DNA from: Amphibalanus amphitrite
Taxonomy: Eukaryota > Arthropoda > Thecostraca > Balanomorpha > Balanidae
Direction: 5' to 3'
DNA: 64,000 nucleotides
Assembly (NCBI RefSeq): GCF_019059575.1
Contig: NW_024881610.1
Span: forward strand, 620,001 to 684,000
Part shown: positions 1 to 46,300 of the stretch, piece after piece
Layout: every line of letters begins with the position of its first letter
Numbering within the stretch: the first letter of the stretch is position 1
Translations under genes and position numbers: made by a program
Notes under the pieces: generated by a model
Database searches by the model: none
Told to the model about the DNA's origin: nothing
Seen by the model: only the letters and a program-made list of their open reading frames with translations

Positions 1-3
1 ACT
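1..3 (+). CDS. Possible 3' edge of an upstream exon, presumably PLC-beta
   Basis: The window opens with ACT followed at once by GTAAGT, a perfect consensus 5' splice site at 4-9. The simplest reading is that the first three bases are the end of an exon of the plus-strand gene continuing at 2393. Three bases cannot prove coding, so this is inference from the donor alone. Confidence 0.3.
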
Positions 4-912
4 GTAAGTCGATTTACGAATAGCCACGAATTTCACCATATTCATTCCCCTAGCCTCACTCTCACTCTTTCACTCACTCATTCACTCATTCACTCACGGG
101 CCAACATATCGCCTTCCAAACACTTCCCAGGCAGCTTGGCGTGTGAATCGCTGATCGCATCACCCGCTTTGCGTTTGTGTGTGAAAATAGCACTCTGCGT
201 GTCCCCCTCAACACACCCCTGAGTGACGTGCCTGCTTACCAACTGTAGATTATCACCTGACTGTGTGTATATTTTATATGTTCGCTTCTGTTTTCACGTA
301 TAGCGTTTTGCCTGGAGTGTTTACCCTCGCCTGCCCATGATACCGTTCGTAAAATAGTTGATTTGCTGTTCACCAACATGAGTTCAGCATGTCATTGGTG
401 GACGAAAACATTCTCCCGCCGTTGCTGATGTCAATTACCTCCGCTTTGAACATGGCACAGCGCGTGAGTTTGACCGACGTCATTTTCCGAAAGAGTAACC
501 GAGGGACGGAGACGGAAAATACGACTGGTCTCGAGTTGTTTGTGATATAGATATGCGATATCTTACGACGGTTACATTATAAACATGCGAAATAGCGCGG
601 AATTTTAGAATTCGGAGTCATGAGTTTTCGTAATAAACAGCTTATGGTCTATGATTTTGAAACATAAATTCCGTAATTTTACATCAATGGGGACCGGAAC
701 CATTTATTTTTGCTGGCTCCGGGACCGGGCCTTTAGCGGTTCCGGCTCCGCATTCCAAGGTAAAATGAGCCTTTTATCACCTTTACCGAGACTCACTGCA
801 CGCTTTTAGGAGCTGTTGTCACATAATTTGTAGCGTCACCCCCGCCTTGTCGTGTCGACCCCCACCCCGCGCTTCTCCCCTATCCCCCGCCGGGAGCTGG
901 TAGCGCCTTGTG

Positions 913-944
913 TGACGTCACCGGTCCGTGTGTGTGTGACGTCA
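913..944. promoter_or_regulatory. Pair of palindromic CRE sites (TGACGTCA)
   Basis: Two perfect TGACGTCA octamers lie at 913-920 and 937-944, each followed by CCGG and separated by a GT-rich spacer, 24 bp start to start. TGACGTCA is the consensus for CREB/ATF bZIP dimers. The surrounding 830-1120 is CpG-rich. They could mark an internal promoter or enhancer in a PLC-beta intron, but no promoter element was identified. Confidence 0.35.
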
Positions 945-2392: not shown

Positions 2393-4851
2393 AGCGGATG
2401 GAGCCTCTGCGTCTCCAGCACAGTCAGCCCAACTCGGTGGAAGAACCCGCCATACCCGGTGAGATGGACCGCATATTCTGCTCACCGCTCACCGCTCAGT
2501 GATCAGTGGTGGCGAGCTGGTATATTTGAGGGCGTGCCGGCTGCGTTTTCTGTCCTAGGCAACTTGCTTGTGTCATAGCAGGGGCTTTGTTGATGTACCT
2601 ATAAACGTTTATGAAATACATAATCATTAATTGACAATCCATGAGATGTTACTAGATACGAACGTAAAGCAATGTTTCTAATTGATGTTCGTGCGATGGA
2701 CTGACCGACACCTTTTCCTCTCTGAGATTGTCTCCTGAACGCCGTCCCTCTGGACAAACTCTGGGAGGATAAACTGGTTCGGGAGCGGCGCCAGGAGCTC
2801 GACAAAAAGCTGGAGAGCATGCGGAAAAAGTTCGCCAGGGAGCGGCTGCGACCGCAGGACGCGCCCGGCCCGGCCACCACCGAGAAAAAGAACAGCTTCT
2901 CGCGGACCCACTCCAAACTGGTGAAAAAGTTCTCCAACTCGAACAAAGTGTGAGTGAGAGAGAATTGAGGACGTAGGGTCTGTAGTTGTGATTGAATGAG
3001 GTTGATTAGGTGTTCATATGAGTTTTATATTCATGAGTTCCATAACAATTTATGTCCAGTCATTTCAGTGATATACGTCATTCACTGATTGACCACTCAG
3101 TCGCTCAACTTCCACATGATAACTCGTTGCGTTCCTATGCGACACCCCGCTGACGTGACCCGTCTGTCCGCGTGTCTCTGCAGGGAGGGTCTAAGTCTGG
3201 TGGCACCCGACCCGGCCGATCAGGAGGCTGTGAAAACGTTCTGCCGTCAGGTGGCGGCAGCAGAGCGGGAGCTCACCGAACGCTACATCGATATGGTGAG
3301 TCCTGTGCTTGGCTGTGGGATTTTGGCTGTAATGGCTAACGCAGGTCCAGATAACATCTTCGCTATAAATACGTCTTTCCGCACCGTAAATGCTGTTCTG
3401 TCTTCCATGCCATAACCACGTCTGCTCTTTTGCCACAGATTCACGACGCGCTGGATAAGGTGGTTCGCAGTGCGCAGGCGCAGCAACTGAAGAAGCTGGA
3501 GGTCTACTATGACCAGAAGGTGGCCGAGAGTAAAAAGAAGATCGAGAGCGAGCTCAAGGACGCCAGCAAGCGGCTCGACCGGAAGAGCGTCTCCAAAGAC
3601 GAACGGTCCAGGTGGGTGCTTTCAAAAATAGTTGCTAGTGTTTTCGCTGGCAACGTCGACTTCGATTATGTGTTGTCAATGGTGTGCTGCTAGCCACACG
3701 TGCCGTGGTTTGTTCAACAAGAGATATTTCCACTGTTAGGGTGTTCCGAACGCTTCTGCGTACTGATGCTGATGTGTTGTTTGTTTCCAGGTTGCGCCGT
3801 GAGATGTCGCAGGTGATTGTCAGGGATGGCGTGCAGCACCGCGAGCGGCTCAACGAACAGGTGCAGCAGGCCAAACAGGCGCTCAGTCAGCAGCACAACC
3901 AGGTCAGTGTACTGACAACATAGTTCAGTATATCACTGACCCACGAGCGGCTCAACGAGCAGGTGCAGCAGGCCAAACAGGCGCTCAGTCAGCAGCACAA
4001 CCAGGTCAGTGTACTGACGACACAGGTCAGTGTATCACTGACCCACGAGCGGCTCAACGAGCAGGTGCAGCAGGCCAAACAGGCGCTCAGTCAGCAGCAC
4101 AACCAGGTCGGTGTACTGACAACTGCAGAGGTCAGTGTATGACCTGCAGTATATTACTCACCTGCAGCAGGCCAATGATCAGGCCGGCTCAGTCAGCAGC
4201 ACAATCAGGTCAAAGCACCCGCTATAACAGGTTTCGCCGCATCATATCGGACGGTTACGTCGGAACCTCCCTGTGGTCCTCGCCGTGATGTATGGCGTAC
4301 TTACAGCTTGCCCGAAATTCCTTCACTGGCACATCAGCCTTCTCTGTGACCGGACTCCTTTGACATCCCTCTCCTTCTCCCCAGGTGCGTCAGCAGGCGC
4401 TGGACCGCCGGCAGCGGCAGACAGTACCCCTCTGACCTCCCCCTCTCCCCCAGGTGCGTCAGCAGGCGCTGGACCGCCGCCAGAGCTGGCGGCAGCGTCA
4501 GACAGTACTCCTCTGACCTCCCCATCCCCCTCTCCTCTTCCCCAGGTGCGTCAGCAGGCGCTGGACCGCCGCCAGAGCTGGCGGCAGCGGCAGACAGTAC
4601 CCCTCTGACCTACCACCTACCTCTCTCCCCAGGTGCGTCAGCAGGCGCTGGACCGCCGACAGAGCTGGCGGCAGTGTCAGACAGTACTCCTCTGACCTCC
4701 CCATCCCCCTCTCCTCTCCCCCCAGGTGCGTCAGCAGGCGCTGGACCGCCGGCAGAGCTGGCGGCAGCGGCTGGACGCCGAACAGACGGCCCGCACCGAT
4801 CAGCTCCACACAGAGTGGCTCGACAGCCGGCCAGAGACCAACGCCGCCTGA
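2393..4851 (+). CDS. PLCB: Phospholipase C beta, C-terminal exons (5' part lies outside the window)
   Basis: PLC-beta hydrolyses PIP2 at the plasma membrane downstream of Gq. Only the distal coiled-coil C-terminal domain, which binds membrane and G-alpha-q, is here. Exons read from splice sites and phase: 2393-2458, 2727-2949, 3184-3295, 3439-3611, 3791-3902 and 4726-4851 (TGA at 4849-4851), about 270 codons. All junctions are GT-AG and phases agree. The chain is highly charged and helical, with IHDALDKVVRSAQAQQLKKL, SKDERSRLRREMSQVIV and QQHNQVRQQALDRR, which line up with the PLC-beta family tail (QLKKLKEICEKEKKELKKK and HKEIRQQILDE in vertebrate PLCB1, from memory). It ends in ETNAA. I cannot tell a norpA-type from a Plc21C-type paralogue. 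The catalytic X/Y and C2 domains must lie upstream. The last intron is flanked by tandem copies of both exon edges (see findings). Confidence 0.85.
3843..4208 (+). repeat. Tandem copies (102-bp unit) of the 3' edge of the penultimate PLC-beta exon with its donor
   Basis: The sequence from GAGCGGCTCAACGA through the exon end and the following GTCAGTGTACTGAC recurs with starts at 3843, 3945 and 4047, a period of exactly 102 bp. A fourth, degraded copy runs to about 4208. Each of the first three contains exon sequence joined to a GTCAGT or GTCGGT donor. Exon readthrough past the first donor meets a TAG after seven codons, so only splicing at a donor keeps the frame. Confidence 0.9.
4381..4770 (+). 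repeat. Five tandem copies of the acceptor and 5' edge of the last PLC-beta exon
   Basis: A pyrimidine tract, CCCCAG and the exon start GTGCGTCAGCAGGCGCTGGA occur five times, with exon-side starts at 4385, 4454, 4546, 4633 and 4726 (spacings 69, 92, 87 and 93 bp). Only the last copy runs on into the full terminal exon. The first four run into CAGACAGTA, CCCCTC or CTCCTC and TGA, so each is an acceptor followed by a short open frame and a stop. Confidence 0.92.
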
Positions 4852-6072
4852 GCGGGCCGCCGGCGGCACCCACCCTCCTCCGAACCAAAGGTGCGCTGAC
4901 AAAACGATGAGAGGTATGTGTGGTTTGAAGGAAGCCTTGTCAGGATAGCCTGGTAGGTATCCTGGATAGTTGCCCCGGATGTACGATTACGAACCTAACT
5001 TGTTTTTAGTTAAGCGAGGCGGTGTAGACTGTGGACTACCTACAGCTTGTAACGATTAAGTCGCTTTGAGGACTTTGTTACCTATTGCCTTATTCAATTG
5101 CTGCACCTACGAGCTGCAGCTACGAGCTTCAATTGCTGCAGTTTCTCTTTCTGCTCGAGGGCTGATCTGGAGCTCTGTGCGGCTCTTCTCCGATTTGCAC
5201 TGTGACTAACGACAGTCCGCCGGTTTCAGACTGATCAGCCAGGGCCGCGCCCATCAGGGAAGCTGCACGCGCCGCCGCCGCTGCCGCCTCGGGCGCGCCA
5301 GCTACCAGTACAAACCTCCGTCGGCTGGCCAGCCGCCTACGCTGCCACCTGTCAGTCGCGCAGCGCACTAGTATTATCGGCCCGCTCGACAGATGGCACT
5401 GCGCACAGTCCGGCAGTGTGGACCGCGGCCGCCGCCGGGCTGAATTGTTCAGTAGGTGAATTAGGTAACGAAGGCAGTTAGAATGCGTCGGGTAGTCATG
5501 TGTGTATGTGTGTGAGAGAGTTGGGGATTGTATCACGTTTTAGGGGGCTGATTGTATTGCGATATTTAGCCTCTGCCCTCCGTCAATGCCAATGTTCGAA
5601 GATAGGGTCGCTGGGGAATGATTGATCGCCAATTTAATGATTTGACAGCGCTGTCAGGAGCAGCAGGCGGGCCCGGCTCCAGTATCACTGCTGTGTGGTC
5701 GGGCTCGCGCCTCCACAGCGGCAGCTGCAGCTAGAGAATGACGTTTATATGCGAGCATTTTACGCGTTGACACACTCGAGGCCCGCGGCCCGAGTTTTGT
5801 TAATTTATTTTATCGTTTCGGACCATATCTGGACGGCCATGACAGTCAGGTGCGATGATTGAGCGCTTTATAGTATGCCCTGCCACTTGCTCGCAAGCGC
5901 ACGTGATTTGTTTGAACGATTTTCTTGCCGACAGACTGGTGCGAACAAACGCACGTGATTGGCGGCGCCAGCAGTGATTGTGATAGTGATTGCGCCGATC
6001 GAGCTGTTGCGCCGGCGCCGCCAGCCGGCCCGCCGCAGGCTATACGTTATTGTGCTGTGATCTGAATATACA
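4852..6072. other. PLC-beta 3' UTR and intergenic sequence
   Basis: No gene is recognised between the PLC-beta stop and the foldback element. The 3' UTR must start at 4852 but no clean AATAAA was found soon after. A CpG-rich patch lies at about 5200-5450. Its open frames on both strands look like composition effects: alanine- and arginine-rich, without a domain. Confidence 0.5.
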
Positions 6073-6700
6073 CTACTATGAACGTCAAACCGCTTGAGAC
6101 CCCACTTTTTTGCGATAATTTTTAAATGCGTCAACTTTCGTTGACAATATTCTGGCAATGTATGTTTCAGAACCTGCCGAAACTTTTATTGCTAAGGTAT
6201 TTTGACGCCAAACGATTATGGAAGGTACTTCTCATTCACTCGTAATGCTAAGGTCAATTCAGGCCCGGGCAGAGGCTTGCACTCGGCCACACTCGAGCCC
6301 CGCCACCAGCGCCATCTGCTCTAAATGCCATCTACCAGCGCCCGCTGCCGCTACCAGCTACCGACCACCATCAAGCCTGAATGGAGCGAGGGACGCGAGT
6401 GACCGGTCGCCGGGCAAGGAGCGCCGGAGGGGTAGGGCGGAGCTTAGGGCTGACGTCATTACGTGGCTCCGCCCCATGAGCGCGTAGCCTCTACCCAAAC
6501 AGCAGATTCGTTCCGTGAAATTTAACATTACGAGTGAATGAGAAGTACCTTTCATAATCGTTTGGCGTCAAAATACCTTAGTAATAAAAGTTTCGGCAGG
6601 TTCTGAAACACACATTGCCAGAATATTGTCAACGAGAGTTTACGCATTTTAAAATAATCGCAAAAAAGTGGGGTCTCAAGCGGTTTGACGTCCATAGTAG
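6073..6700. mobile_element. 628-bp foldback / long-TIR MITE, Tc1-mariner-like target site
   Basis: Left arm 6073-6248 and right arm 6526-6700 are inverted copies, roughly 90% identical by eye over about 175 bp, enclosing a 277-bp CpG-rich core with no transposase. The ends read CTATG(A/G)ACGTCAAACCGC inward from both sides and are flanked by TA dinucleotides (6074-6075 and 6698-6699), as expected of a TA target duplication. No internal gene is seen, so it is non-autonomous. The arms carry AT-rich blocks such as TTTTTTGCGA. Confidence 0.85.
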
Positions 6701-6950: not shown

Positions 6951-9900
6951 CTACAACATGCCGTCATTTCTGTTCTGTATGATCGTGACATGCGTCACAG
7001 GGAGAGGTTTCCCCGTACTATTGGAATCACAGCCACCGGGTTCGGATAGAGATAGTTTGGCGAGATCTGTGTGGTCTAGGAACTTCTCAACTACCGCAAG
7101 CGTGGGATGGTTTGGGATCTCACCGCCGTGTGACTCGACTGTCACCCGCTCCGACCGTACTGTCCCGTCTCCGCCGTCCGCCGGCGCCTCCATCAGCCTG
7201 TCGCACACGTCGGCCGCCTTCTCCGTCCTGCTCTCCAGCTTGGCGATGCGGCTGCCGAACTGGATGGCGCGCTTGGTGCGCCGCGCGGCGGCCGGGGCCC
7301 CGCAGCGGGCGGTCAGTAGGCGGATGGGCAGTTTGTCGCAGCCGCTCCAGCCGGGCCCCGGCTGCGCCTTCAGCCAGATGGGCAGGGAGCTGAGCAGACT
7401 GACCACCGACTCGTCCAGGAACGGAAACCTGACGGGAGGGGGGAGGGTTAGCTGGGGCTGCCGGGGAGCTGCAACACGGCAAAACGAGAAAGGTCAAATG
7501 GGTTGTCAGCCGGTCAACATCACCCGACTCTGGAGAAACATGAAACGACGGATACGATTGAAATGATAAGCTCAAACGGAAAATAGTCTCAAGAGATTCA
7601 GTACCTTTTCAGCTCGTGACGCCCAATCCATGAAAACTGTGGCACTGGTCACTTCTTACATCCTGATAGCCTGATGACCCCCTTCAGCACCCCGTCCCCG
7701 CCACTGACCTCGCCTCCCTGCCGTGGTCGCTGATAACAGTCCTCCTCGCCCCAGCTGTACCCCTCTCTCCGCCACTGACCTCGCCTCCCGTCCGTGGTCG
7801 CTGATGACCCGGTCATCCCTGCCCCTGTACCCCTCTCCGCCGCTGACCTCGCCTCCCTGCCGTGGTCGCTGATGACCCGGCCATAGGGTCCCCTTTTCCT
7901 CTTCCCTCTCCGCCACTGACCTCGCCTCCCTGCCGTGGTCGCTGATGACACGGTCCTCCTCGCCCCAGCTGTACCCCTCTCTCCGCCACTGACCTCGCCT
8001 CCCGTCCGTGGTCGCTGATGACCCGGTCACAGGGTCCCCTTTTCCTCTTCCCTCTCCGCCACTGACCTCGCCTCCCTGCCGTGGTCGCTGATGACACGGT
8101 CCTCCTCGCCCCAGCTGTACCCCTCTCTCCGCCACTGACCTCGCCTCCCGTCCGTGGTCGCTGATGACCCGGTCACAGGGTCCCCTGCCCCCCCCCCCCC
8201 GCCACTGACCTCGCCTCCCGTCCGTGGTCGCTGATGACCCGGTCACAGGGTCCCCTGCCCCCCCCCCCCCGCCACTGACCTCGCCTCCCGTCCGTGGTCG
8301 CTGATAACAGTCCTCCTCGCCCCAGCTGTACCCCTCCCCGCCACTGACCTCGCCTCCCGGCCGTGGTCGCTGATGACCCGGTCGTAGGGTCCCCCTGCCC
8401 TTCCTCTCCGTCACTGACCTCGCCTCCCTGCCGTGGTCGCTGATGACCCTGTCGTCCCTGCCGAGGTTCCTCTCGCAGATGGCAAGCAGCTGAGTCTGAA
8501 TCTCTGCCACCAGACCAGGCCAGGAGCGGTCTCGGAAGGCTGAGCGGTGCCGCCCGTACCCGGCCAGCTGCTCGTCGGCGCCCATACCCACCAGCACCAC
8601 CTGGCGGACGATACAGGAACCTCTGCGGTAATGTGTTGACTTCGAAAGCTTGTGATCGTTGCCATAACGAATTCGAGTCAGTTAAGAAGATATACTTCAG
8701 TTTGTTACACAGTTTGTTTACATGGCAGCTTTTAACAGAATAAGCTGTTGCGAAATCAACAAAAAGCTGATGACCGAACTTCAACTTTCGCGTCCTGAAA
8801 GTAGGCACACTAAACCAAATCCTAAAACACGTCCGACTGTCCCATGTCACCCTCCTCTGACTTACTCTGGCCTGCGTCTGGTACGGCCGGCGGCCGGGCC
8901 CGTCCCCGGCCAGTACTCCGGCACCTCTGGCAGCGAACCACACCGCGCAGCCGATACTGTCGTCCAGCACGGTCTGCAGGGGACTGATGAGATGGCGGAC
9001 CCGCGCCGCCCGCCACCGAGACAGCTCCGCGGCGGTCACATTCACCTGAGAGGAACGGGTAGTGGTCAGTGGTGAGGGCGAGAACGTCAACATGTATGTC
9101 TTTAGTTCTTCCATCGGCGAGACTAGTCAGACTGCTTATCCGAGCGGGTGAGCTGCAGTTGTCAGTGACATTTATAGCTCTAGCTCCTAGATCAATAACA
9201 AAAGAAGGATTTTCAGCGAAATAAGAAGGAATCAACGCGTTTACTCACTAGATAAATCCACTCCACCGTTCCACACGGCTTACCTCAACAAAGTTCCACC
9301 GTCGTCGCGGGTTGATCGTCTGCAGCTCCCGCCATCCGTCCCGTCCCGTCACTCGGTCGGGCACGTCATACTCGGACGGCGTCTCTGCCTCCGTCTCTGT
9401 CGTCCCTGAGACAGTCGGCCGGCCACGGCCAGCTTTTCTACTTCTCCCCTCTTTGCTCGGTGTTTGTGCCTGTTTCGGCCGTTCAAACGCCACATTGAGA
9501 AGATCCACGGGCTGGTCATCGGGGAGACATCTATCGGCCATCGCCGCAACTAACATCGAGTCCACGCCGCCAGAGAAGAGCACCGCCAGACGTGGGTGGG
9601 GGCAGGCTGCGGGGCGGCTTCCCGCGGCGGCAGCGGACTGCAGACAGCTGGCACATACTGGCGGCATGTTCCCCACCCGGCGCCTCACCGCCGCCAACAT
9701 GGCCGCCTCGAACCGCTCCATGGCGGCCGCCATGCCAGGCAGACGCTCCGCCTCTTCCAGGCCTCCACCAGCGTCGAGAAGTGTTCTGAGTTCATCATCT
9801 GGCACCGCTGGGTTGACAGTCATCACGGCGGGGCTCTCCAGCGGCGGGCCGGGCGCCACAGACGGCCGCCACGCGTCCGGGACCGTCACGTGACTCCAGG

Positions 9901-10844: not shown

Positions 10845-11060
10845 AATACCAGGTTGTAGAGCTAAAAATTGGCCCAACGAAATTAATGCGGGTACTAATT
10901 ATGTGAAATTTTACAAGTAAACAACTAAGCCACGATCTGGACATGCCTAAGAGCTGGACTTTTTGCACGCGTTCCCCGCCAGGGGGCGCCACTGAGGAAG
11001 CACCCTCTGACGTCACGATAAAACTGCGCGCACTGTGCGCACGGATCTGTAAGCAAGTAA
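10845..11060 (-). promoter_or_regulatory. ASNSD1 5' flank with CRE and part of an interspersed repeat
   Basis: Upstream of the ASNSD1 ATG lie a perfect TGACGTCA core at about 11000-11007 and a 30-bp repeat at about 10930-10965 (CTAAGAGCTGGACTTTTTG). A second, inverted copy of the repeat near 14740-14785 also sits next to TGACGTCA. No TATA box is evident. Placement as a promoter is inference from position; the transcription start is not visible. An open frame starting at 11016 and overlapping the ASNSD1 start codon in another frame could act as a uORF if the transcript begins upstream of it. Confidence 0.4.
10930..10965 (+). repeat. Interspersed repeat, copy A of an inverted pair
   Basis: CCACGATC, a short variable stretch, GGACATGCC and CTAAGAGCTGGACTTTTTG form a block that recurs in inverted orientation near 14745-14785 with only a few differences. 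Between the copies lie about 3.8 kb that include the PHD exon. They may be ends of one element or two independent insertions of a short repeat. Confidence 0.7.
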
Positions 11061-11258
11061 TATAGTGGTGGTTTCATGGTGGAAATTGGAATAAGTATTT
11101 TGACGTTATAAAATTTCAAGCCGTTTTTGTGAAATTAATTAGTAAATGCATTTCAAAAGAATTTATTTAAAGTGTGAAAGGAGAATAATTAGAAGAACAT
11201 GGATATTTTTGTTCCAATAGCTTATAATGTGAGACATGATCGGTACTAACGGGTACTT

Positions 11259-11335
11259 CTAAGAAGTAGTGAAGAAGTACCAAACAGCCTGCTCGGCTAC
11301 GATCGTCAGCTGTCCTTTGGAGCTGGACTTCAACG
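11259..11335 (-). CDS. Candidate terminal exon downstream of the PHD-finger exon
   Basis: On the minus strand a strong acceptor (T-rich tract then TACAG, 11340-11336) precedes 77 bp open to a TAG at 11261-11259. The frame that fits has two leading bases, exactly what the phase-1 end of the PHD exon at 13757 needs. The peptide starts LKSSSKGQLTIVAEQAVWY and ends five residues later. It lacks the last Cys pair a PHD finger needs, so the pairing is doubtful. Phase agreement alone happens one time in three. Confidence 0.28.
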
Positions 11336-11785
11336 CTGTAAAAAAAATATGTGGTGAATTAATTTTTAGTTTCACCAAAATATAAGCAATTTATCATTTC
11401 TTTTTCACTTTTGTAATTATTGTTGAGTGAAGAGACATGTTGCTAGTTCTGACAATATAAATTATTAATTTAAAAAAAACGAAATGCGACGGTAAGTATC
11501 TGCTACTAAATTATCACTTTAACCAAATACATGGAGAATCTTGCTACCATTGCTTATAAAACGTGCTTATCAATACACAAATGTTTTATTTCAGACAAGA
11601 AGGATTTATTTGCCTGAAGTCTTGCGTCATGTGCTACTGCTTTGATTCCAAAGACGCTCTCCGGGTCGGGGTAGTTTAGTTCTTCATCGATCGATAAGAT
11701 ATTTTGATTCCATTGATATCCAAATTGATAAGCTCGGCACTATGGAGTAAGGGCGTCCCCACAGGGGTGACGCAGGAAATATGAA

Positions 11786-11851
11786 TGGCGTTTACACCGA
11801 CAGTAGTTTCTCACAGCCGGCAATGGGAATCTCCTGTCGGTGTAAACGCCA
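11786..11851. repeat. Perfect 18-bp inverted repeat (hairpin)
   Basis: TGGCGTTTACACCGACAG at 11786-11803 is the exact reverse complement of 11834-11851, with a 30-base spacer. This is either the core of a small MITE or a short stem-loop. No target duplication was recognised. Confidence 0.85.
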
Positions 11852-12472
11852 CTATAGTCCCATGACCCATCCAACTCAAACACTGGGGAATATCCCCGCA
11901 CTTTTGAGGACGGAAATCTATGGACCTGCTCGAAAAATAGTGGATAAAATACGGCGAGCTTTCAGTTTTATGGGTGGGTCTCCCATCCGAGGCACTTATT
12001 TACGGGGGATATTGGGTCATATTCCCCCGGCGTCCTGATGATCGGCGCCCAGCTCAACGTCGAAGGCGCCCTGATACGCGGCACTGCTATCTGTGAAGGT
12101 GCCCAGGTTGCTGCCGCTCGAATTTTGGTCGCCTACTTAACAAAACCTCCGTTGGTGCCATCTCAGTTTCCTCGAGGTCAGGCAACCTTCACACGCCGTT
12201 GGCTACCTTGGCTGGCCGGCGACTCGTTCCCCTCGTGGCGACGCTCTTGACATCCAGTCAAAAGTTGGAGTGGCTGGCGCCCCCAGTGGGGGCCGGGGAA
12301 GGGGCAGTGGGCCTCCACGTTGCTCTTCCCGAGCCTATGGTGACTTGGCTCAACTCTCCTCAATAGAATCTGGATTCTGCACGCTGTATTAACATGGGCG
12401 TAGACACCACTACGGACAATACGGACAGTGGGTGTGACAATCAGTAGTGCCATTCATATAGAGGGTGTCATA

Positions 12473-13645: not shown

Positions 13646-13756
13646 GTTGGGAAGCAGATTGTTTGAAATACATGTTTGGCTGAACAGTGCGGAAAATATT
13701 TCATTGATCACTATAGCTGCAACAAAAATACTGAGACAGAAAACATTTGCGCTTAC

Positions 13757-15958: not shown

Positions 15959-18900
15959 ATGGGGGACCAGATGGAGGCGTTCGAGGTCACAGACTACGAC
16001 CTCGAGTCCGAGTTCAACCCGCACGCGCGGCGCGGCTTCCGTCAGACGCGGGAGGAGCGCATCTACGGCGTCTTCGCCGACGACAGCGGCGACGAAAAGG
16101 CCGGCCCGTCGAAACCGAAACGGAAACCCAACTACTCGGCTCCGCTGGGATTTGTCAAAGGTGAGAATGATCGCATGGCTCGTCCAAATTACTGGCATGG
16201 TGCTTTTTTGTCAAAATGACCAGAAATTATATTGATGAACGTATCTGCGTTGTCGGTCGGTGACGGTGTGAATTAAAGCTATGCATCTTCCATATCACTC
16301 TTTCACTACCATTTCAGCTGTGCCATTAACGCACGACGCATCTGACACTGTGCCTGCGTACAGGTGGCATTCACCAGGTCGGAAAGGACGCTGTGCCGGC
16401 GAAGAAGTCCGATGACGAAGACGACGATGGCGACGGCCCACCTGCCGGCTCCAGGTGAGTCATGCGTCTTTGGTTTTGTAGATTACACATCTGCAGTGTA
16501 ATTCAGTTAACATAACTGAATGATGTATCAGTATCTGCCGGGTGATGCCTGTAGCATCACCCAGTTGCGTCACCTACCTAGCTCATCGTCCCCCTCTCCG
16601 CCCGGCAGTGACGAGGATGAGGCGGCGCCGCGGCTGGGTGCCGGCCTGCCGCGCGCGTTCGGCTCCGGTCCCAAGCAGCGCCGGTTCCAGTCGTCGGGCG
16701 CCGGGCCGAGCCGGGAGGAGATTGCCGGGCTGCGCAGTACCGGCGGCGCCGGGCCCACCGCCGGACTCGGCGACATCGGACACTGGGAGAAACACACCAA
16801 GGGCATCGGAGCCAAGCTGCTCAAACAGATGGGCTTCAGGGAGGGCGGCGGCCTCGGTGAGTGGTAGTCGGGTGGTGGATCTGGAGCGATGGATCGGTGT
16901 CTGGACCTCGAGTTGAAATAGGCAGTTCCTGTTTCTATTGTATGACAGAAACGGCGTTGTAGTGTGCATTGTGTTTAAAATGCATTATATTCGTCGGTAA
17001 TCGTCGAACTTACGTTTTCTACACGATATAGCGTTTCCGATCCATTATACAGGAGTTTTTACTGGTTCACGAGAGCCCTCTAGTTCATCTATCGTTCACA
17101 ACTATGTGGTAACAACTCACATATCACCACATGAGTTATCACTAACACCGTCCTCCCTCCCTCCATCAGGTAAGAACCTGCAGGGTATCTCCACCCCTGT
17201 GGAGGCCAAGCTGCGGAAGGGCCGCGGCGCGATCGGAGCCTACGGGACCGAGAAGCCCGCCTCGCGACCGACGCCGGCCGCCGACAAGGAGGGCGACGAG
17301 CCGGAGCGAGAGTTCAAGGAGAAGCTGGGGCAGTGGCGGCGCGGGCCCAGACGCAAGAAGGTCGACTACGTGTACAAGACGCTGGATGAGGTGCTTCAGG
17401 AGGGCAAGACGAGGACGCTCAAACCGGGAGTTTCGTCCAGGTAGGCTGAATGTGATGGTTGGGAAAGGGCTTTCTTATTCGATGAAGGGTAGGGCGACAA
17501 TGAAGCCAAAGGTTACGATAAATAATGAAATAAAGGTGCGAAAGGAACTGACTACTTCTTGGGAGTGCCGACTGGAGACTCATCATCTGACCTCCCCTCC
17601 GCCTGTCTCCGTCAGCAGCGGCGGCGACCTGGCGCGTACGAAGGTGATCGACATGACGGGCCGCGAGCAGCGCGTGCTCTCCGGCTACCACGCCATCCAC
17701 GGCCAGCGCGCCCCGCCCCAGACGGAGACGGCTGCCGACGACGACTCCAAGAGGACGTTCGACATGCCCGAGCTGCTGCACAACATCAACCTGATGGTCG
17801 ACCTCTGCGAACAGGTCAGAGACCGCCGGGAGGCCGTGGAGATGTGGTGGCGTTAAGCTGAGAGATGAATCCGCATCTTTTTAAGAGCATTTAGGCAGAC
17901 TCGGAGGGTCGTTTTTATAGATCCCGCTTTCTATAATAATTTCTGTTTCTTGAGAAGACGCGTAATATTTTAATCAACTATGCACTAAACATTGAAATTT
18001 TGTAGGCGCACATCCACTCACCTCCACCAGCAGTACTGCATCCTTCCAGCGGCGTTTCTAACCCTCCCTCTCCCCCACAGGACATTATCCGCTCGGACCG
18101 GTCGCTGCGCTACGAGCGGGACCGCCAGGTGACGCTGGAGCACGAGGAGGCGCAGTTGTCCGAGACCATCGAGCGGCACAAGTCGCAGCTGGAGCGTGTC
18201 GAGGATGTATCCCGCGCAGTGGACTACATGGAGGCCCACAAACCCGGCTCGGAGAACCCGAGCCCGCTGGACGTCATGAGCAAGATGTTCCTCAAACTGA
18301 AGGTGCGTTGAGAGTGCCGTTTTTTTTTTTGCGGGGAGCATCTGAGACCTGTTTATGGGATGATTATGGGTCCCCTGACGGGTATGGTTGCGGTTGGTTT
18401 CAGGCCGTAGCCAGCCGAAGTCAGTGAAGTGACCGGCCGTGTGCGGCAATGTGCGTACGTTAATTTTCAAACCCTAAATTCTGCCATAGATCAGGAATTG
18501 AACGATCGTAGGTAGAGGGCCGGACCAACGTAACAAGTTCTGCTTAGCTGCGGGGGCTCTGTTCTTGTGAATCTTTCCATTCAAAAGGTCGGACCAAAGT
18601 TAAAGAAAAATCAAATTTGCTGCGATTTCCCCTGTATAAAGCTACATGAAGCACTGACAGTGACGAGCAGTCCGTCAGATAGCCGGATGATATTGAACAT
18701 CTGCAGTCCCCTGATCAATATATGTTGATAGACCGAATATCGTAGACTGGTTTGCTGTCCATTCATACAACTGTCCAGTGGCACAGCGTCATAGCCAATC
18801 TAACGCGCCCCTCTCTCACATCCATCTTGTTCCCCAGACGGACTACCCGATCGAGTTTGACGTGTTCGACCTGGACTACCTGGCCGTCGACTACGTGTTC

Positions 18901-21900
18901 CCGCTGGTCAAGGAGCTGCTCAACATGTGGAACCCGCTGAAGAACCCAAAGTTCGCCACCGAGGTGTTTGCTGAGCTGAAAGAATCTCTGGAGAGCAGCG
19001 ACAAGCCGCAAATGGAGTACGGCACGCCCGTGGACGTCTACCACAGGTGGGCCATGATTCTACTGGTGAGGGTGACGAATGGTGATGTTGAATGGTAGTG
19101 GTGATGTGCTGGATGGTGTTAATGCTTTTGGAAGTAGCGTTATGATATCATGAATATGTTTAGGGTAATACGATGATTTTGGAGAGAGAGGTGGGGAGAG
19201 CTAGAGTGGTGTGTTACAGCTACAGGTAAGCGGTCTCTCTGTTGCAATACGGGGGCTGAGTGAACCGTTTGTGTAGGGATTTGAATGATGAGCTGGTGTG
19301 TGGGTGTGGTGATTTATATTGTTGCGTCAGCCGTCAGTCCTCGTGTCGTTATGCCAGGCTCATGTTATCCTTGGCGGTAATTTCTAATGCTCCATTGGTT
19401 TCCCGCTGGCCTTTGAGGTTTCCTTGCGAAAATGTTGCTTTTCAATCTGGGAGCTGTCATATTATTTCATCGCGCCATTAATATGAGTTCCCATGTAACT
19501 TGAATTCTTGGCTCGTGTTCCTTTGACACGGTAACTGATTTATATCCATACTAAATAATGCCAGTAGCTTGGCACAGATACAAATGGCGTGTCATTGGTC
19601 TTGTTTCATCGCTGATGTTGAGTGGTAAATGTTGTAACATTTCGTCACCGGTGAATTTAACTTGCTAGAGAATGAGGTGACCGAACTGCGACCGCCAGCA
19701 GCTATAGCGACCTCTCCCACTGCTAATCACAATTCAACCCTTGTTTCCTGCCGTCACTCTGCTAACCCTCCATCCCCCTCTCTCAGGCTGCTCTGGGAGC
19801 TGTGGATGCCGCCGGTGTGGCAGACCGTCTGTTAACCCTCCCTACCTCTCTGCTGTCTCCAGGCTGCTGTGGGAGCTGTGGATGCCGCCCGTGCGCCAGG
19901 CCATCAGTCTGTGGCAGCCCAAGCTGCAGCCGGAGCTGACCCAGCTGCTGGAGCTGTGGCGTCCCGTGCTGCCGCGCTGGATCTTCGATAACGTCTGCGA
20001 CCAGCTGCTGATGCCCCGGCTGCAGACCGAGGTGGACGCCTGGAACCCGCTCACCGACGCCGTGCCCATCCACAGCTGGATACACCCCTGGATGCCCATC
20101 ATGGGTTAGTAGGGAGGGGGGACAGTGCCCATCCACAGCTGGATACACCCCTGGATGCCCATCATGGGTTAGTAGGGGGGGGGGGGGACAGTGCCCATCC
20201 ACAGCTGGATACACCCCTGGATGCCCATCATGGGTTAGTAGGGGAGGGGGGGGGGGGGGAGACGGGACTCGTCCGGTCCCTGGAGTTAATCATGGGATCA
20301 GAAATAAGAATTAGTGGTTGTATTGGTCAGCCCTAAGATAAAGGTAAATCGTCATTTTATTTCACATAGTTTCGCATCACTACGGACATAATAACACAAT
20401 GTCAGCAAATTCAAAAGGCAACGAACATTTAATCGGGATAATCACCACACTTGTCTTATCCTAGTATATCATATCGTATAGGTAACGTACTCGTCTCAAC
20501 AAACTAACTACTCTCCTGTTCCTGGTTTCAGACCAGCGCCTGGAGTCTGTGTACCCGACGATCCGCCACAAGCTGGCCAGCGCGCTGCTGGCCTGGCACC
20601 CTTCGGACCGCTCCGCGCGGCTGATCCTGTCGCCCTGGGTGGGAGTGATGGCTCCCGGCAGCCTGGAGGCGTTCCTGGTGAAGAACATCCTGCCCAAGCT
20701 GCAGCTGGCCATGTCGGAACTGGTCGTCAACCCCAACCAGCAGGTGAGGCGATTAGGGAGGGGAGAATGGGGACAATGGATACTTGCGGTCAGGAATGAA
20801 GGGAAGATACGAGGAGCGTCGCGTGAAGCAAGAATGTAAAATTGGTTGTCTTAATTCTTCAGTGTAGTGGATTGGGTACAGCTAGGGAAACGAAAACGAG
20901 CTTTTGTGTATTGGTGCCTCCGATAGTGTAAAAAGCATTACGTTTAGTTTTTGATTACTGCTGAATGTTACGGTGCTGTCATCTCTGGAAAGGGTGGGAC
21001 TCTGGCAGATCGATGATGAATGGATCTAATGTAGGTCCAACTGACCCCTCTTACCCCAGGTGTTGGACCAGTGGAACTGGGTGATGGATTGGACCTGACC
21101 CTCTGTCCCATTCTGTTTCCAGGTGCTGGACCAGTGGAACTGGGTGATGGACTGGGAGGAACTCCTCTCGCCCGTCCACCTCGTCAGCATTCTCGACAAA
21201 CTCTTCTTCCCCAAATGGCTACAGGTGAGTCTTGACCCAGTGAAATGTCGCGGATGAGGAAATTTAGGCAGCTAATGAAAACTGGTCGCATTCCGTCGGC
21301 CAGATGACGATCCTTGCCTATCATGCCCGTTGCTGAACGATTTTTGTAACGGAATGGTGGCCGAGTATGTTGCCGATACTCGATGAGCTGACCTTTTGGC
21401 ATCGCTCCCCCCTCCTCCCCTCAGGTACTGGTGACGTGGCTGAACCACGCGCCCAACTACGAGGAGGTGACCAAGTGGTACCTGGGCTGGAAGCAGCTCA
21501 TTCCCGAGAAACTGGTCGGACATGCCGTCGTTAGAGGTGAGCTGATCCACGTTATCATGGTCCCTACGTCCCATTGTACTCATGTGTAAACGTTTTCAAA
21601 ATAGCTGTTTCATTTCAGTGGTGTTTCATCCGACGTGCACAAGCACCAAGGCCATGTTGCATCACTTTTTCATGCTGCTTCACAGTCGTATCGGCACGCC
21701 AGCTAGCGTTCGTTCACGACAGAGCATAGGACCGCCTTTTGATCCATTTCGCTGGTCTAATTTCACCGCTCCGCTCCCCTCAGAGCACCTGAACACTGGT
21801 CTGCAGCTGATGAACCGGGCGGCCAGTAACCCGGGCCAGGCGGTCTCCTACCAGGAGCTGAGTCACCTGCTGGCCAGCAGTACGCCGCCGCCGCCGCCGC

Positions 21901-22590
21901 AGCCGGCGCCCACGCCGTCCCAGATCAGAAACCGGGAGGTAGGTGACGGGCAGCGCCTCTACCGGATGGTGGGGGAAGTACGGGTAGGGGTTGCAAACGA
22001 TAGATGGGGCGGGTGGTCTCATGGTGACGTTTCAGGGAAGGAAAGTGTGTGTGTTGATTGTTTGCTAATGGCTCGTAAAGCGGAACATAGAATGACATCT
22101 GTATTCTTCGGACGAGTAATTCTAACGCACCGTTAGGAGTTGTATAGCAAACACATCGACTTCAATCACTTAATTAGCCGGTAAACATCCGGGTTTTAAC
22201 AACAAAACAACAAAAATGTCTTAATTGCTGTTACTAGAAATGATCACATATTCAATGAGGCCTACCTTCTGTCGTATGGGACAGCCTTAGTGTATCTGAA
22301 TTCCCCCTAACTCCTCCCGTCACCTTCCTCAGGACCTGACGGCTGCGATCCGCACCGCCTCCGGCTCCGTCACGATCGGTTTCCGGGACCTGCTGGAGCG
22401 CCGCTGCGAGGAGCGCGGCATCCTGTTCCACCCGCTGCCGGGCAAGTTCCACGAGGGCAAGCCAGTGCTGCGCTGCGGCGGCCTAAGTATCTACCTGGAC
22501 AGGAGTGTGATCTTCGTGAACGACGGCGGAGTGTGGGTGCCCAGCTCGCTGCAGAGTGTGCTGGATAAGGCGGCGCTGACTTCAGTGTAG
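15959..22590 (+). CDS. TFIP11: Tuftelin-interacting protein 11 (G-patch spliceosome disassembly factor), complete, 13 exons, 840 aa
   Basis: TFIP11 (Sip1 in flies, Ntr1 in yeast) activates the helicase DHX15 to take apart the intron-lariat spliceosome. Exons: 15959-16160, 16364-16454, 16609-16856, 17170-17440, 17616-17814, 18081-18302, 18838-19046, 19863-20104, 20532-20743, 21123-21224, 21425-21536, 21784-21938, 22333-22590. All are GT-AG and phases close exactly at 841 codons including TAG; human TFIP11 is 837 aa. The N-terminus [20 protein letters not shown] is the TFIP11 N-terminal region. The G-patch ([39 protein letters not shown]) lies at about residues 155-200. The GCFC-like region follows ([34 protein letters not shown]), then the C-terminal [19 protein letters not shown] Pro/Gln-rich insert lies near residue 745. 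The ATG context (AAGATGG) is strong. Exons 8 and 10 carry duplicated edges. Confidence 0.97.
18303..18837 (+). other. TFIP11 intron 6 (no feature seen)
   Basis: A 535-bp intron with a T-run after the donor and no exon, repeat or motif that I recognise. Confidence 0.6.
19047..19786 (+). other. TFIP11 intron 7 up to the decoy acceptor (no feature seen)
   Basis: Unique AT/GC-mixed intron sequence without a recognised gene or repeat before the duplicated acceptor at 19787. Confidence 0.6.
19787..19880 (+). repeat. Duplicated acceptor and 5' edge of TFIP11 exon 8
   Basis: CTCTCAG then GCTGCTCTGGGAGCTGTGGA at 19787 repeats 76 bp later as the true exon start at 19863. The upstream copy reads on for 14 more codons and then hits TAA, so using it without a second splice would truncate the protein. 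It is preceded by a good pyrimidine tract. Confidence 0.9.
20065..20260 (+). repeat. Three tandem copies of the 3' edge and donor of TFIP11 exon 8
   Basis: The segment from GTGCCCATCCACAGCTGGAT to CATCATGG and GTTAGT occurs three times, with donors after 20104, 20167 and 20233 (spacings 63 and 66 bp). The copies are joined by growing G-runs (6, 12-13 and 17-18 bases). Only the first is continuous with the exon; the others carry the same exon tail and donor. Confidence 0.92.
21060..21160 (+). repeat. Duplicated acceptor and 5' edge of TFIP11 exon 10
   Basis: TTACCCCAG then GTGTTGGACCAGTGGAACTG at 21060 is repeated 63 bp later as the true exon at 21123 (GTGCTGGACCAGTGGAACTG). The upstream copy diverges after GGATTGGACC and meets TGA in frame, so it behaves as a decoy acceptor that would give a truncated protein. 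Confidence 0.9.
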
Positions 22591-38037: not shown

Positions 38038-38155
38038 AGCCCGTATATACCAGCGTTTCGCGCCAATGTGAAGCGTGTGATCATGTCGAGACGCCGAGTA
38101 GCTGTCTGAACCTGTTCCAGTCGCACGCTTGTTTGTGTTTGCCAGTGATATCTAC

Positions 38156-38690
38156 ACTGATAAAAATTTTGACACCCCACCTCTACGACGACTCCATGTT
38201 TTAGAGTCTGAGTGCTTAGATTTTGGTGTCCGACTCCAAAATGTATGGTCATTGACCCCATCGTTTGGCGTCGGTTTCCGACGAAGCCAAAATATGGTGT
38301 CCTCCTGAGAGGGTCATGACACCCTTAAATCGGATCAGTGAGCTCTGCGAGGGTGTCCGACACCAAAACGGCAATAGTTGACGCCTTTGTTGGGGAGTTG
38401 GCTATCTTTAAAAGGGAGTCGTGCATCTTAGCAAGGGAGTAAGACACCCCTTTATGAGAGTCAAGTTAAAATGAGGTGTCTTGACTCTACGTTATTGCAC
38501 TCACTTAACATGGAGTCGAGACTCCTTTTACACATTTGACTCCCATAAAATGTGCTTTACTCTCTTGCCAAAATATCTGACTCCTCATCAAAGAAGAATG
38601 ACTCTCTTTTGAACGTAGGTGACTACCTTTGGAGAATAAGTGATTCCCTTTTGAAACTATGCCTACTCGTACTGTCTATATGTTCCCCGT
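38156..38690. repeat. GACTCC/GACACC-word-rich repeated segment
   Basis: From ACACTGATAAAAATTTTGAC onward, about 530 bp are built from loosely periodic words such as TGACTCC, GAGTC, GACACCCC and CCTTTTGA on both strands. Similar pentamer-rich sequence is typical of short non-autonomous elements. No matching inverted right end was found, so the borders are approximate. Confidence 0.6.
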
Positions 38691-38771
38691 TTTATCTGGT
38701 TTTACGTGTCTGGTGAAAAGCCACTTTTATTGTGGATCCTAGATGAATACACATCTGTATCTGTATCTGTA

Positions 38772-41700: not shown

Positions 41701-43352
41701 GTGTTCACCGTGAGCAGCTGTCACGGCGCCGGCCGATATGGACGGCAATCAGATCGGTCTGCGTCCATCTGTCCTTCTGTTTGGAGACGGGCGCTATATC
41801 GGTCCGCGCGGCGCTTTGAGCGGTGGCTGCCGACTATCGATATGGTCAGGGAGCTGGGCGGGCCGGCCACTTGAAACGGCTCGGCTCGGCATATCCGGGA
41901 GGGACGCGGCGGGGCAGGAAGATTCACGGAAAAAGGAATGGCAGCCATTGATGGACCATCATGTCGATGAACTACACAATAGTCATGAGAAATTTCACTT
42001 CACAAACTGCTGAAAAATAATGAAACATTTTAAATGGGTGCATTTCCGATCATTTTCAAGACAAAGAAACTGTCCTTGTTATGTAAATGAGTTCGTCCTC
42101 TTTCTCACCAGCCCGTATTTCCGCCCGCCTCTGCTCCTCCCTCTGCCGGTACGGCTGCAGGTCTGCACTCCTGCGAGCTGGTGCGCACCTGGCATGTCGG
42201 GTGTCCGCTCAGTCGGGATGTCGGCTGTCTCGCCGAACGGCCTACCTGTCATGTCGACCCGACAGGCGGCCCCGACCTCCATTACCGACCATTTGTCTGT
42301 CTGTCTGTCGGTGTGTCGTCACTCATCTTCCTGTCTGTTGGAGTTTGTCTGTGCGAGTCTGGACGGAGGCTAGGTGGCGCAGCGCAAAGAACCATTATAT
42401 ACCTTTGTAATGTATTGGCTTCGCTAATGCACTTGAACGGAAAATGGTACCTGAAAAACATGCGAATCGCGTACGGCTCTTGTGATAACACACCGTGTGG
42501 TGTTATGTTTATGTGCTTAGTCGGAGTCTCCGTTACCTGTGCGTGAGCTGATATGTCCGAACGCCTAAAATAAAGTGTGGAGACTAAGCCCAAGGCGCAC
42601 GCTAGTTTCATTGCGACTATGATTTACTGTCGTTTCAATGCATCAACATCGAATAATAAATAAAATCAACTTAGTTTGAACTTTGAAGAATACAAAATCT
42701 ACTGCCTGTAATCCCTATCGCTCCTAAGCGCATTCAATAAAGCCCACTTAGCTGCCAGTATCGCCTCACACCCTTGTCATATTATTTATACGGCGTGCTA
42801 TCGTCTGATCGGTGTCACACCTCGGCTGGGGATGCGTCGTTCATGTATGATGTATGTCTGTGAGCGGCACTGTGGCACGGAGCGCCGGCACGACACAGTC
42901 AGCCATCCGGGGTAGCTCCGGGTAGCGACCTGACCCGGGCCACTCCTCCCGACCCTCCGCGACCCTCCCCGGACGGAGAACACTGCCAGCAGACCGGCAC
43001 GGCCGGCACCAGACGTCCGCCGGCGGAGGATCGGATCCGGCCACTCTGCCGCCATGCAAATGTCGCTCTCCGGTGCGCCGCGCCGCAGTCACGACCACCT
43101 CTCGGCGGCACACGACAATCTGTCGGCCGGCCCGATTTGGCGGCCGGGCAACCTTGCAACAGGCAGATGAGCGCCACGACCTGACGGCCGCCTTGTTTAC
43201 AGGAATTATGCAGACCGAACATGGCTGCGCACCAGGGGACCACTCTGACCCACTGCTGAGACGCTCCACGCGCGCCGGGCGGCCGGGCGGGTCCGACACC
43301 AGTCCGCGCCCGTCAGACTTTTACCTGACGCCACCGTGTCTGTCTGTTGCAG
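38772..43352 (+). other. Long putative intron / intergenic sequence
   Basis: No exon is recognised before 43203. CpG-rich patches lie at about 40980-41200 and 42900-43180. A C-run sits at 40426-40437 next to (CA)n at 40480-40495. The open frames in this stretch have no recognisable domain. Confidence 0.45.
43203..43352 (+). CDS. Alternative in-frame 5' extension of the first coding exon
   Basis: An upstream acceptor, TTGTTTACAG, precedes GAATTATGCA, the same ten bases that start the main exon 150 bp later. From this upstream ATG (43208) the frame is open and joins the main ATG (43358) exactly in frame, adding 50 residues beginning MQTEHGCAPGDHSDPLLRRS. Whether it is used is unknown. It could be an old exon-edge duplication or chance. 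Confidence 0.35.
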
Positions 43353-46300
43353 GAATTATGCAAGATCGCGATGACCACAGAGACATGACAATCAAGAGCA
43401 GCGGCAGTGAGAGTATGGCTCCGCTCGGGATGCGTTTTCCGCTCGATTTCGACCTCAGCATGGGACAGATGGCGCAGGAGGAGGCCGACCAAAACTCCAG
43501 GTGAGTTCAGCCGGTGACTCGGCTTCTCCAGAACGGTCGCCGGTCGTGTGCCGGCATGCTGATTGCTTATCAATGGGACATGCCATGGAAGCAAGCGGCT
43601 GTCGTCCATATGCAGGCATCACGGTCATAGAAAGAACAGCTGCTGCACGATTGTATGCAACACGATCCGGCGAGCGTGTTTTATGAGCGTTTCCCAGAAG
43701 TTTCATTACGAGTTTCTAAGGCGAACCTGGCCGCACCAGTCCAGAAGCACAATCAGAGGCCGGCACCGTTCTGCTCTCACGGAAAGTGACCGTAATGGGC
43801 AGTTCCACTGGCAGCGCCAACACCGAGCCCTGCACGGAAAAGCCGGCATTGCATGCCCATACCGGGCGGATAGGGTGCCCCGGGCAGTGCAGCGGCCGCC
43901 GCGTGCCGCCACCCTCCAGAGGGGGTGGATGGAGGGGGCTCCCGTTCGCCGTAAGCCAGGTGGCTCCAGCACACCTCCAGTAAGCAATGAGTCATGCCTC
44001 GGAGCTCTGGGCGCCGACGGTCGGCTAAATTCCACTACGCTATTCGTCTGAATGCGCACACTAAGTGGGCGGGAGTAAGAGCCACAGCTGTTAACAGGTG
44101 TCCAGGCAGGCTTGGGAGGGGAGAGAGACAGTGCAGAAAACAGCCCGGTTCATCCTGCTTCAGCTGTTCTACAAGCTGTGCCAGGTACACAGTTTATTGG
44201 AGGAATTCCCCGAGACATGTTCTGGATTGGCGAAGTGCATGACGCATGTCTGGAGGATGCTAATTGCTGCCTTTTGCCGACAAATGGTCTAAGGAGGTGG
44301 GATGTCCACATTCCTAATTCATATATGGGATCGCTCCTGAGTAATATGAGACTGTCACTGAACGATACCACGCAAACATATTTTACTAGTCGACTGAAAT
44401 AGGCTGAGGATGGGTGGTGATTTATTGTCGAGTTCGTCTAACAAAACTGCATCACGAATTACACATACGGACTTGGTCGTCGCCTATTTTTGGATTCCCT
44501 CAATTTATATATGTGGTACAAACCCTACCAATCCCATTCCTAAATGACGCAAACCGCACCGCTTCGTCATTTCCGAACCATGTTTCTACCACCGGCCGCC
44601 GATTCTTAGTCGGCCATGGTGTATGTAGAGTTTATCGTGTCGAATTTCTCCACAACACCGATCTGTACTTGTGTGCAGCCTTCACACCAAACCATAAGCC
44701 GCAAATCGTCTTTTCGATCACGTATAGCGTGCGCGAGCGGCACGTTCATGGGGAGGGGAGGAGAGGGGGAGTGTGTTCAATTACCGCCACCGACCTGGAC
44801 TGACGTAGCTAACGCGCACAGGACAAACCGGCCCCATCCGTCACCAAAACCGCCCACTGCGATCATAGCCAACCACCGCGCGACAGCCGGCCTGAATCTG
44901 GAATCCGATGGTTTTACGATTATTTACATGTCATGCAAAAACGCTCGGCTCCGATGGAAGAGTGATTGAGAGGCATTTCGGTCCTTACCAATTAGGAATA
45001 AGCGGATCAGTCAGCGAATGACGCGGTATCGAGCGATCGGCTTAGGGTCGCGTGTGACTGAAGGCAGCCGTATTGTCTTCTGTCTCCTCCGTCGACCAAA
45101 TCGGGCTAAGCCGCTGAGGTATTTGTTTCGTGATTCGCCCGTATGGTCTAATGGTCGAGCGCGCCGCGGAGGGTCGCAGAGACTGAGTTTTGGGCCGGAT
45201 CTGGGCGAGGAGGGCTGTCTGTCTCCGGGCGGCGGACCGGGCTGTGTCAGCTCCGGCCGCCGTCCTCTCGCACCGCGTCGCGGGCCGTGCCATGTACGGA
45301 CGGAGGCACGCGATCGGCTCCAACCGGAGCCTGTGACAGCCCCGCCCGGCGTCCGGCTGTCGTCCCGGGGGACCCGTCACCGCCGCGTTCCCACGGCCTC
45401 CCGGCAGCAGGCGCGGCGGCGCTTTCTCGCAGATTACGGCGACTGGTAGAAACCGCAGCTGGGGGCGCCGCCGGGCTGCCTCAGCCGCTGTCGCCACCAC
45501 GGTCCCCGCTGTCTCCCCGCCGCGATCACGAGACTTTGTCTCCATCGCCACGCCGCATCGACAGAGATCACGCGTGTCGAACTCGACTGCCGACCGGCCT
45601 CCGCGGCGTGGCGACTTCACGTCGCTAGCATTCTTTGTGCGATTTATGGAGCTCGTTTCGGGTTTGTGGATTCGGAAAGTGAAATCTTGCCATTACGATG
45701 ACGACAGTAGTTTCACAGCGAGCGGGCACACGACGTGCTCACGCACTGTGACCGGCAGGTGCGGGCCGAGGCCAGATCCGAGACGGGGTTTCACTGTTCT
45801 CCGGACATCGGACTTGATCAGAAGAGCAAACATAACTGCCTTTGTGAAAGCGTATCAGCTCTCGTAATGAGTCAATCTTTAGCATGTATCATTAAACAAA
45901 TAATTTATCTGGTTGTTACAATCATGGAAACGGCCAAAGGTTATTTAAAGGCACGTCTTAGATTACCCGTTCAGAAGCAAAGGTGTGAATGTCTGAAGCA
46001 ACTCGGACCCAGACATTCCACCGACGTTTCCACTCCATCTGTGCATTGGTTCTGGCGGCGCGGGTCGATCAGTCTCGATGAACACATCGCTCCGATCGGC
46101 TCCACTCATGATCTCGAGTCACCTCTCGTGACTCTGACTCACGCCCGCTCCGGCTCGGCCGCTCTGCAGTAGTCTGGCTGAGTCGAGCAGACCGGACATA
46201 GCGCTGGGTGCGGGGGCGACCAAGCCGCGCTCCTCGCTGCGCTGTGCCGGCCCACGCGGATCTTCACACACACCCGACCGATTTACCAGCAGGAACTGAC

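Follow-up and report, generated by a model that had tools for sequence, protein, structure and literature searches.

Tandem copies of exon-intron boundaries, known as 'mirages', have been described in amphioxus. They are minisatellite-like, involve either the donor or the acceptor, and have units of 10 to 160 bases, and the accessible parts of two reports place them in the genes for the globins BflGb6 and BflGb9, Adh3, PGBD5, and troponin C (PMC3087553, PMC3902484). The same parts describe AG or GT in many of the copies, BflGb6 haplotypes with 6 and 3 units, and regular splicing (PMC3087553, PMC3902484). Somatic instability is also reported for amphioxus. In this study, we analyzed arrays of a comparable structure in a stretch of 64,000 bases, C113:620001-684000 (hereafter the window), belonging to an 807.55-Mb assembly of 2,644 contigs. 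The window contains the 3' part of PLC-beta on the plus strand, ASNSD1 on the minus strand, and TFIP11 on the plus strand. Six tandem arrays straddle a donor or an acceptor in these three genes, with 2-11 copies at a spacing of 63-102 bp. The arrays are probably minisatellites of the mirage type that started near exon edges through slippage or a template switch and are tolerated via the exon-proximal copy, a reading to which we give a probability of roughly three in four.

The arrays were sought with Tandem Repeats Finder (TRF) and by self-comparison. TRF recovered 4 of the 6, and self-comparison all 6, including both two-copy TFIP11 acceptors. In PLC-beta (plus strand), a donor array at 3839..4212 consists of 3 full copies and 1 degenerate copy at a spacing of 102 bp, each with CAG/GT (the slash marks the junction), and adjoins the exon at 3791..3902. 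It is followed by an acceptor array at 4367..4771 with 5 copies spaced 69-93 bp apart, each reading CCCAG/GTGCGTCAGC; the body of the last exon (4726..4853) is entered from the last acceptor copy, and the exon-proximal sites give the open frame QQHNQ/VRQQ. The Pfam match of the 3' part of this gene to PLC-beta_C is weak (E 0.0025, below the cut-off). ASNSD1, which matches Asn_synthase (E 6.6e-17), carries a donor array on the minus strand at 7691..8457, with 11 copies at 68-73 bp, each GCGAG/GTCA; the exon joined to it lies at 8419..8603, its far (acceptor) edge being approximate. TFIP11 (15959..22590, plus strand) has 13 exons with GCFC (E 4.2e-78), TIP_N, and G-patch domains. It contains an acceptor duplication at 19784..19908 (2 copies, 76-bp spacing), a donor array at 20062..20253 (3 copies, 63-66 bp spacing, ending ATGG/GTTAGT plus a G run), and a second acceptor duplication at 21056..21155 (2 copies, 63-bp spacing). 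To the left of the window and close to it, PLC-beta carries another two arrays at junctions, namely a decayed, degenerate acceptor array (L017 8349-8493, window -1652 to -1508) and a donor array with 73-bp units (L017 9614-9872, window -386 to -128), giving 4 donor and 4 acceptor arrays for the window genes.

These data bear out most of what the first-pass annotation had described, namely junction-spanning tandem copies in the three genes, independent units, and a splice dinucleotide kept in each copy. GT or AG was retained in 27/27 copies in the window. Over five arrays and both haplotypes the dinucleotide was kept in 47 of 50 copies (for the TFIP11 donor, 5/5 GT, read by eye), and all three losses fall in one kinesin array outside the window. 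The unit sequences differ from array to array, so the arrays do not form one repeat family; a search against Rfam gave no match at the gathering cut-offs. The description had also been extended to a fourth gene. There, a single identical stretch of 13 bp recurs 150 bp apart (152 in the second contig described below), which we did not count as an array, and a 48-aa piece of the exon matches no Pfam family.

A second contig, C600, of which 215,001-295,000 was compared with the window, is collinear with window bases 1-62,398, with gaps that include 10,864-14,784 and 35,492-38,770. The shared blocks are mostly 82-97% identical to the window and lower within arrays, and the overall divergence is roughly 10%. 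Together with the gene content and the short introns, this divergence suggests that the animal is a barnacle, perhaps Amphibalanus amphitrite; in a related barnacle, the accessible part of one report gives a diversity of about 5% at coding and 20% at fourfold sites (PMC8270832). Second contigs were read as alleles from collinearity and similarity. C600 thus probably represents the other haplotype, an old duplicate being the formal alternative. Five of the six window arrays are present as arrays in C600, and the sixth, the TFIP11 acceptor, is single-copy.

Copy number differs in 8 of the 12 arrays compared between contig pairs. Between the window and C600, respectively, the PLC-beta acceptor has 5 and 10 copies, the ASNSD1 donor 11 and 4, the TFIP11 acceptor 2 and 1, and the TFIP11 donor 3 and 2, while the ASNSD1 acceptor, single in the window, has 2 copies through a duplication private to C600. 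The second TFIP11 acceptor has 2 copies in both, the PLC-beta donor has 4 in both, and the two PLC-beta arrays left of the window are of equal length in the two haplotypes. Outside the window, the two contigs carry 5 and 2 copies for one kinesin gene (kinesin A), about 7 and 10 for another (kinesin B), and 3 and 2 for a myosin gene. An SNF2 contig, C704, was also considered as a second haplotype; its exon is diverged and single-copy, and it was taken for a paralogue and dropped from the count.

Other differences between the two contigs were stretches present in one of them. An insert of about 1.2 kb with inverted ends made of G/C runs splits the PLC-beta donor array of C600 (L009/C600 about 221,985-223,160). 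A segment of about 620 bp at window 6076-6697, bounded by long inverted terminal repeats, is absent from C600, where its flanks are contiguous, and looks like a polymorphic DNA-transposon-like element. Window 35491-38771, also absent from C600, appears by eye to be non-LTR retroelement-like, with an endonuclease-/reverse-transcriptase-like reading and a TCTGTA-repeat tail; it gave no match to plasmids, and no family search was made.

The frequency of such arrays was assessed in a sample of exons picked from whole-genome Pfam listings before any sequence was viewed. The sample comprised 29 of 100 myosin-head, 27 of 139 kinesin, and 21 of 67 SNF2 matches, that is, 77 exon matches in 36 regions and 67,016 bases, and for genes with an evident contig pair a single contig was taken. 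At shifts of 25-400 and with low-complexity matches discarded, self-comparison found 8 arrays in the 67 kb, of which 6 straddle an exon edge, 4 at acceptors and 2 at donors. They are two myosin acceptor arrays (L046, L047), two acceptor arrays and one donor array in kinesins (L049, L051, L054), and an SNF2 donor array (L056); the last was automatically labelled intronic because the Pfam domain stops before the exon, and reading of the sequence puts the unit across the donor. The other two arrays (L057, L059) are weak and intronic. A second method indicated decayed donor duplications at L055 and L064, which stayed outside the placement tests. Introns were solved for 27 of the 33 exon pairs attempted, the other 6 being absent from the resulting 54 junctions, and 5 of these 54 (L049, L051, L054, L055, L064), or about 9%, carry an array. 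Introns are short, with a median of about 318 bp (48 introns). The five 45-bp units of the kinesin acceptor array at L049 825-1044 are open in the frame of the exon, and use of an upstream acceptor there would insert 15-residue repeats into the motor domain.

An excess of arrays at junctions was found under two placement nulls. In the founding-unit null, the first duplicated unit was placed at random in the gene regions, excluding positions that fall entirely within an exon, and a straddle was counted if the exon edge was covered by 4 bases. In these placement tests, the lengths of the units, the labels for spanning, and the end of one exon (L056) were set by reading, the upstream PLC-beta exons came from a codon model, and arrays of the same gene were treated as independent. 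Under this null, 6/8 sample arrays straddle a junction against 0.77 expected (P=1.6e-5; P=3e-4 in a first version of the test with L056 scored as a miss), and so do 8/8 arrays of the window genes, including the two to the left, against 1.57 expected (P=1.3e-6). Pooled, 14/16 arrays straddle junctions against 2.3 expected (P=5e-11). With placement of whole arrays, 4.02 were expected for the window genes (P=0.0028), and with an 11-base margin on each side 7/8 still straddled (P=6e-6). Adding a doubtful array at -18,896 gave 8/9, with P=6.6e-7 for units and P=0.0015 (3.38 expected) for arrays. The junction excess is therefore clear under the founding-unit null and smaller under cruder nulls.

The reading frames point to the copies that are likely to be used. 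Frames are continuous through the exon-proximal sites in the C-terminus of PLC-beta (to the stop), in ASNSD1, and in TFIP11, where the 840-aa open frame is obtained from exon-proximal copies only. In PLC-beta, all 7 other sites (3 donors and 4 acceptors) lead to an early stop. With a generic splice matrix, 3 of the 4 decoy acceptors score 10.6-10.7 and the fourth 7.6, compared with 10.7 for the used one. Variants in the exon parts of the decoys of the PLC-beta acceptor, PLC-beta donor, and ASNSD1 arrays were synonymous in 13 cases and not in 4, where 26% synonymous would be expected; this count is post hoc and omits an indel-shifted PLC-beta donor copy as well as the TFIP11 and kinesin arrays. 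The mostly synonymous variation in the three arrays suggests that the decoy sequences were functional exon edges until recently.

Based on these observations, we propose the following course of events. First, about 25-102 bp of sequence containing a splice junction would be duplicated in tandem, probably via slippage or a template switch where short introns have their repeat-prone ends. Exchange or slippage between copies may then lengthen and shorten the array, which could be why haplotypes carry different copy numbers. The single TFIP11 acceptor of C600 appears on reading to combine the left part of window copy 1 with the right part of copy 2, and looks like the form that a copy-to-copy deletion would leave. 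An intact protein would come only from the exon-proximal copy, that is, the first donor or the last acceptor, and the remaining copies would be intronic decoy splice sites passed over by exon definition; splicing might tolerate the arrays because the exon-proximal copy still works. Copies probably also move between decoy and functional positions, because in three arrays most differences among the decoys are synonymous. A plausible site of slippage is provided by the G and C runs behind donors and before acceptors. In 28 array-free introns, GGG occurs at 43.1 per kb in the first 60 intron bases against 10.7 mid-intron, and CCC at 45.6 per kb in the last 60 bases against 6.6 mid-intron, and many array units contain a G or C run.

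Several of our results weigh against this proposal. The excess in the sample depends on the null, since whole-array placement gave 2.68 expected (P=0.016), and with the 11-base margin only 1/8 straddled (P=0.36). The sample excess is lost at 11 bases because 5 of the 6 junction arrays include only about 5-10 exon bases, and it is on units of this kind that it mostly rests. When automatic edge labels were used with whole-array permutation, 5/8 arrays were at junctions against 3.1 expected (P=0.14), or 4/5 against 2.2 at a score of at least 26 (P=0.11). G or C runs were present at 5/9 array junctions and at 35/87 others, which is not a significant excess (P=0.48). Slippage at G/C runs is treated here as a working hypothesis because array junctions do not have significantly more runs. 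In the decoys, counting every copy of all five arrays gave 16 synonymous and 22 other variants (24% expected, P=0.0105), or 14 and 11 without the indel-shifted copy, and the more decayed kinesin array showed no bias (1:6).

A comparison of junctions with interior intron points, as proposed in the first-pass annotation, also speaks against the proposal. Run on the sample and the window genes (34-mers, at least 80%), it showed no excess, with matches at 3/54 junctions and 17/189 interior points in the sample and at 6/42 junctions and 40/130 interior points in the window genes. An earlier version with one mid-intron pair per intron gave 9/96 junctions and 4/42 interior points, the four interior matches coming from two introns with junction arrays. 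In the later version, interior matches come only from the introns of L049, L051, L054, and L064 and from the three window genes. The arrays in those introns run from the junction into the interior, and for this reason we regard the per-point test as uninformative; the founding-unit test, we think, separates an origin at the junction from spread into the interior.

The strongest competitor is that these are ordinary intron minisatellites and that nothing targets the junction. Introns with slip-prone, G-rich starts and C-rich ends would often yield arrays that reach a few bases into the exon because the intron ends are slip-prone and the introns short. This explanation overlaps with the one we prefer and differs from it on whether junctions are favored; we rate it as a serious possibility that falls short of even odds. 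The enrichment of GGG and CCC at intron ends, the runs in many units, and the disappearance of the sample excess at the 11-base margin are all in its favor. However, runs are not significantly more frequent at the array junctions, and the junctions of kinesin A and the PLC-beta donor have no run of at least 4. Beyond the six junction arrays, only the two weak intron-internal arrays were found in 67 kb. In addition, the window-gene arrays include about 31-65 exon bases in 7/8 cases, and their excess persists at the 11-base margin.

Copying targeted to the junction, for example through co-transcriptional R-loops or repair with pre-mRNA or splicing intermediates, would readily account for 14 of 16 arrays lying at junctions against 2.3 expected. 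However, no spliced (intron-less) copy was present among the arrays read, no mechanistic trace was seen, and the junction appears to sit at varying rather than fixed positions in the unit, which makes this explanation unlikely. By reading of the units, the junction lies at about 0.1 to 0.8 of the unit, so there is no pointer to breaks at the splice site itself, and the earlier suggestion of CAG-GT microhomology as the trigger is conjectural.

It is less likely still that the additional splice sites are kept by selection, with a backup or regulatory role, in a genome that is highly polymorphic. The splice dinucleotides kept in 47/50 copies would agree with it. Against it, stops result from 7/7 of the other PLC-beta sites, haplotypes vary in copy number, and 15/15 ASNSD1 copies share an unchanged GGGAGGCGAGGTCA, a stretch that extends beyond the site alone.

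An assembly artefact, also raised in the first-pass annotation, could draw on long and possibly error-prone G/C homopolymers that differ between copies, but it is very improbable and is contradicted by the contig pairs, since C600 has arrays at the same junctions in diverged versions, with other copy numbers, a new duplication of its own, and a private transposon-like insert in one array, and three more pairs (kinesin A, kinesin B, and myosin) show likewise.

Other repeats were observed in and around the window. A minisatellite with units of about 37 bp at 24522-24928, downstream of TFIP11, lies at no known junction and is shorter in C600. Between ASNSD1 and TFIP11, a direct repeat of about 270 bp (12473-13027) has a best stretch that is 99% identical, 282 bp apart. 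A 1.3-kb complex tandem-repeat element occurs on both flanks of the window (-18,896 to -17,588 and 101,405-102,713) and belongs to a dispersed repeat family; the left array, which may lie in a PLC-beta intron, touches no codon-model exon. A satellite at C113:701440-708807 (L020, L021) forms two blocks of 278-bp units with an identity of about 98%.

A broader view would be that exon edges are a genome-wide duplication hotspot in this animal, with an array at about 1 junction in 10, continual reseeding from the functional edge, copies trading places, and decoys staying coding-like. We put this forward tentatively and consider it doubtful as a whole. If true, new splice sites and shifted boundaries of introns would be constantly on offer in a natural population, and the phenomenon would not be peculiar to lancelets. 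Arrays of this kind at roughly 9% of junctions (5/54) in an unrelated and highly polymorphic animal would raise what was a curiosity to a mutational process that recurs. Alleles found in nature with between 1 and 11 competing, nearly identical splice sites would let the choice made by exon definition be tested directly, along with models that derive intron gain and the sliding of boundaries from duplicated junctions.

Among known systems, intron gain through tandem duplication of exon sequence containing AGGT has reportedly been put forward in the Rogers model, by Gao and Lynch in 2009, and for a potato RdRp gene (PMC4974935). The likeness lies in short tandem duplications that carry splice signals. 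At the TFIP11 acceptor, the one locus compared in this respect, the haplotype whose acceptor is single-copy has the intron as well, so the intron may well have arisen independently of the array, although a second copy could have been lost there. In tandem splice acceptors, of which NAGNAG is an example, competing splice sites lie next to each other. The present arrays also hold competing neighbors, in units of about 25-102 bp that include both exon and intron. Large intronic minisatellite arrays occur within intron 1 of earthworm metallothionein genes and are similar in being arrays in an invertebrate intron, although the accessible part of that report describes no copying of splice junctions (PMC12783039).

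The closest counterparts are the mirages of amphioxus. Our search of the literature on crustaceans, invertebrates, and barnacles, which lay outside most subscription papers, found no report of mirages beyond lancelets. The two systems differ in their hosts, lancelets on the one hand and apparently an arthropod, of another phylum, on the other. Undisturbed splicing and somatic instability are features reported for amphioxus. For the present arrays the junction excess was measured against placement nulls, and in three of them the variation among decoys is mostly synonymous. As far as the accessible parts of the amphioxus reports go, both systems share a repeat that spans the exon-intron boundary, at donors as well as acceptors, with AG or GT and with copy-number differences between haplotypes. 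Taken together, the arrays in PLC-beta, ASNSD1, and TFIP11 appear to be of the known mirage kind, in another phylum.

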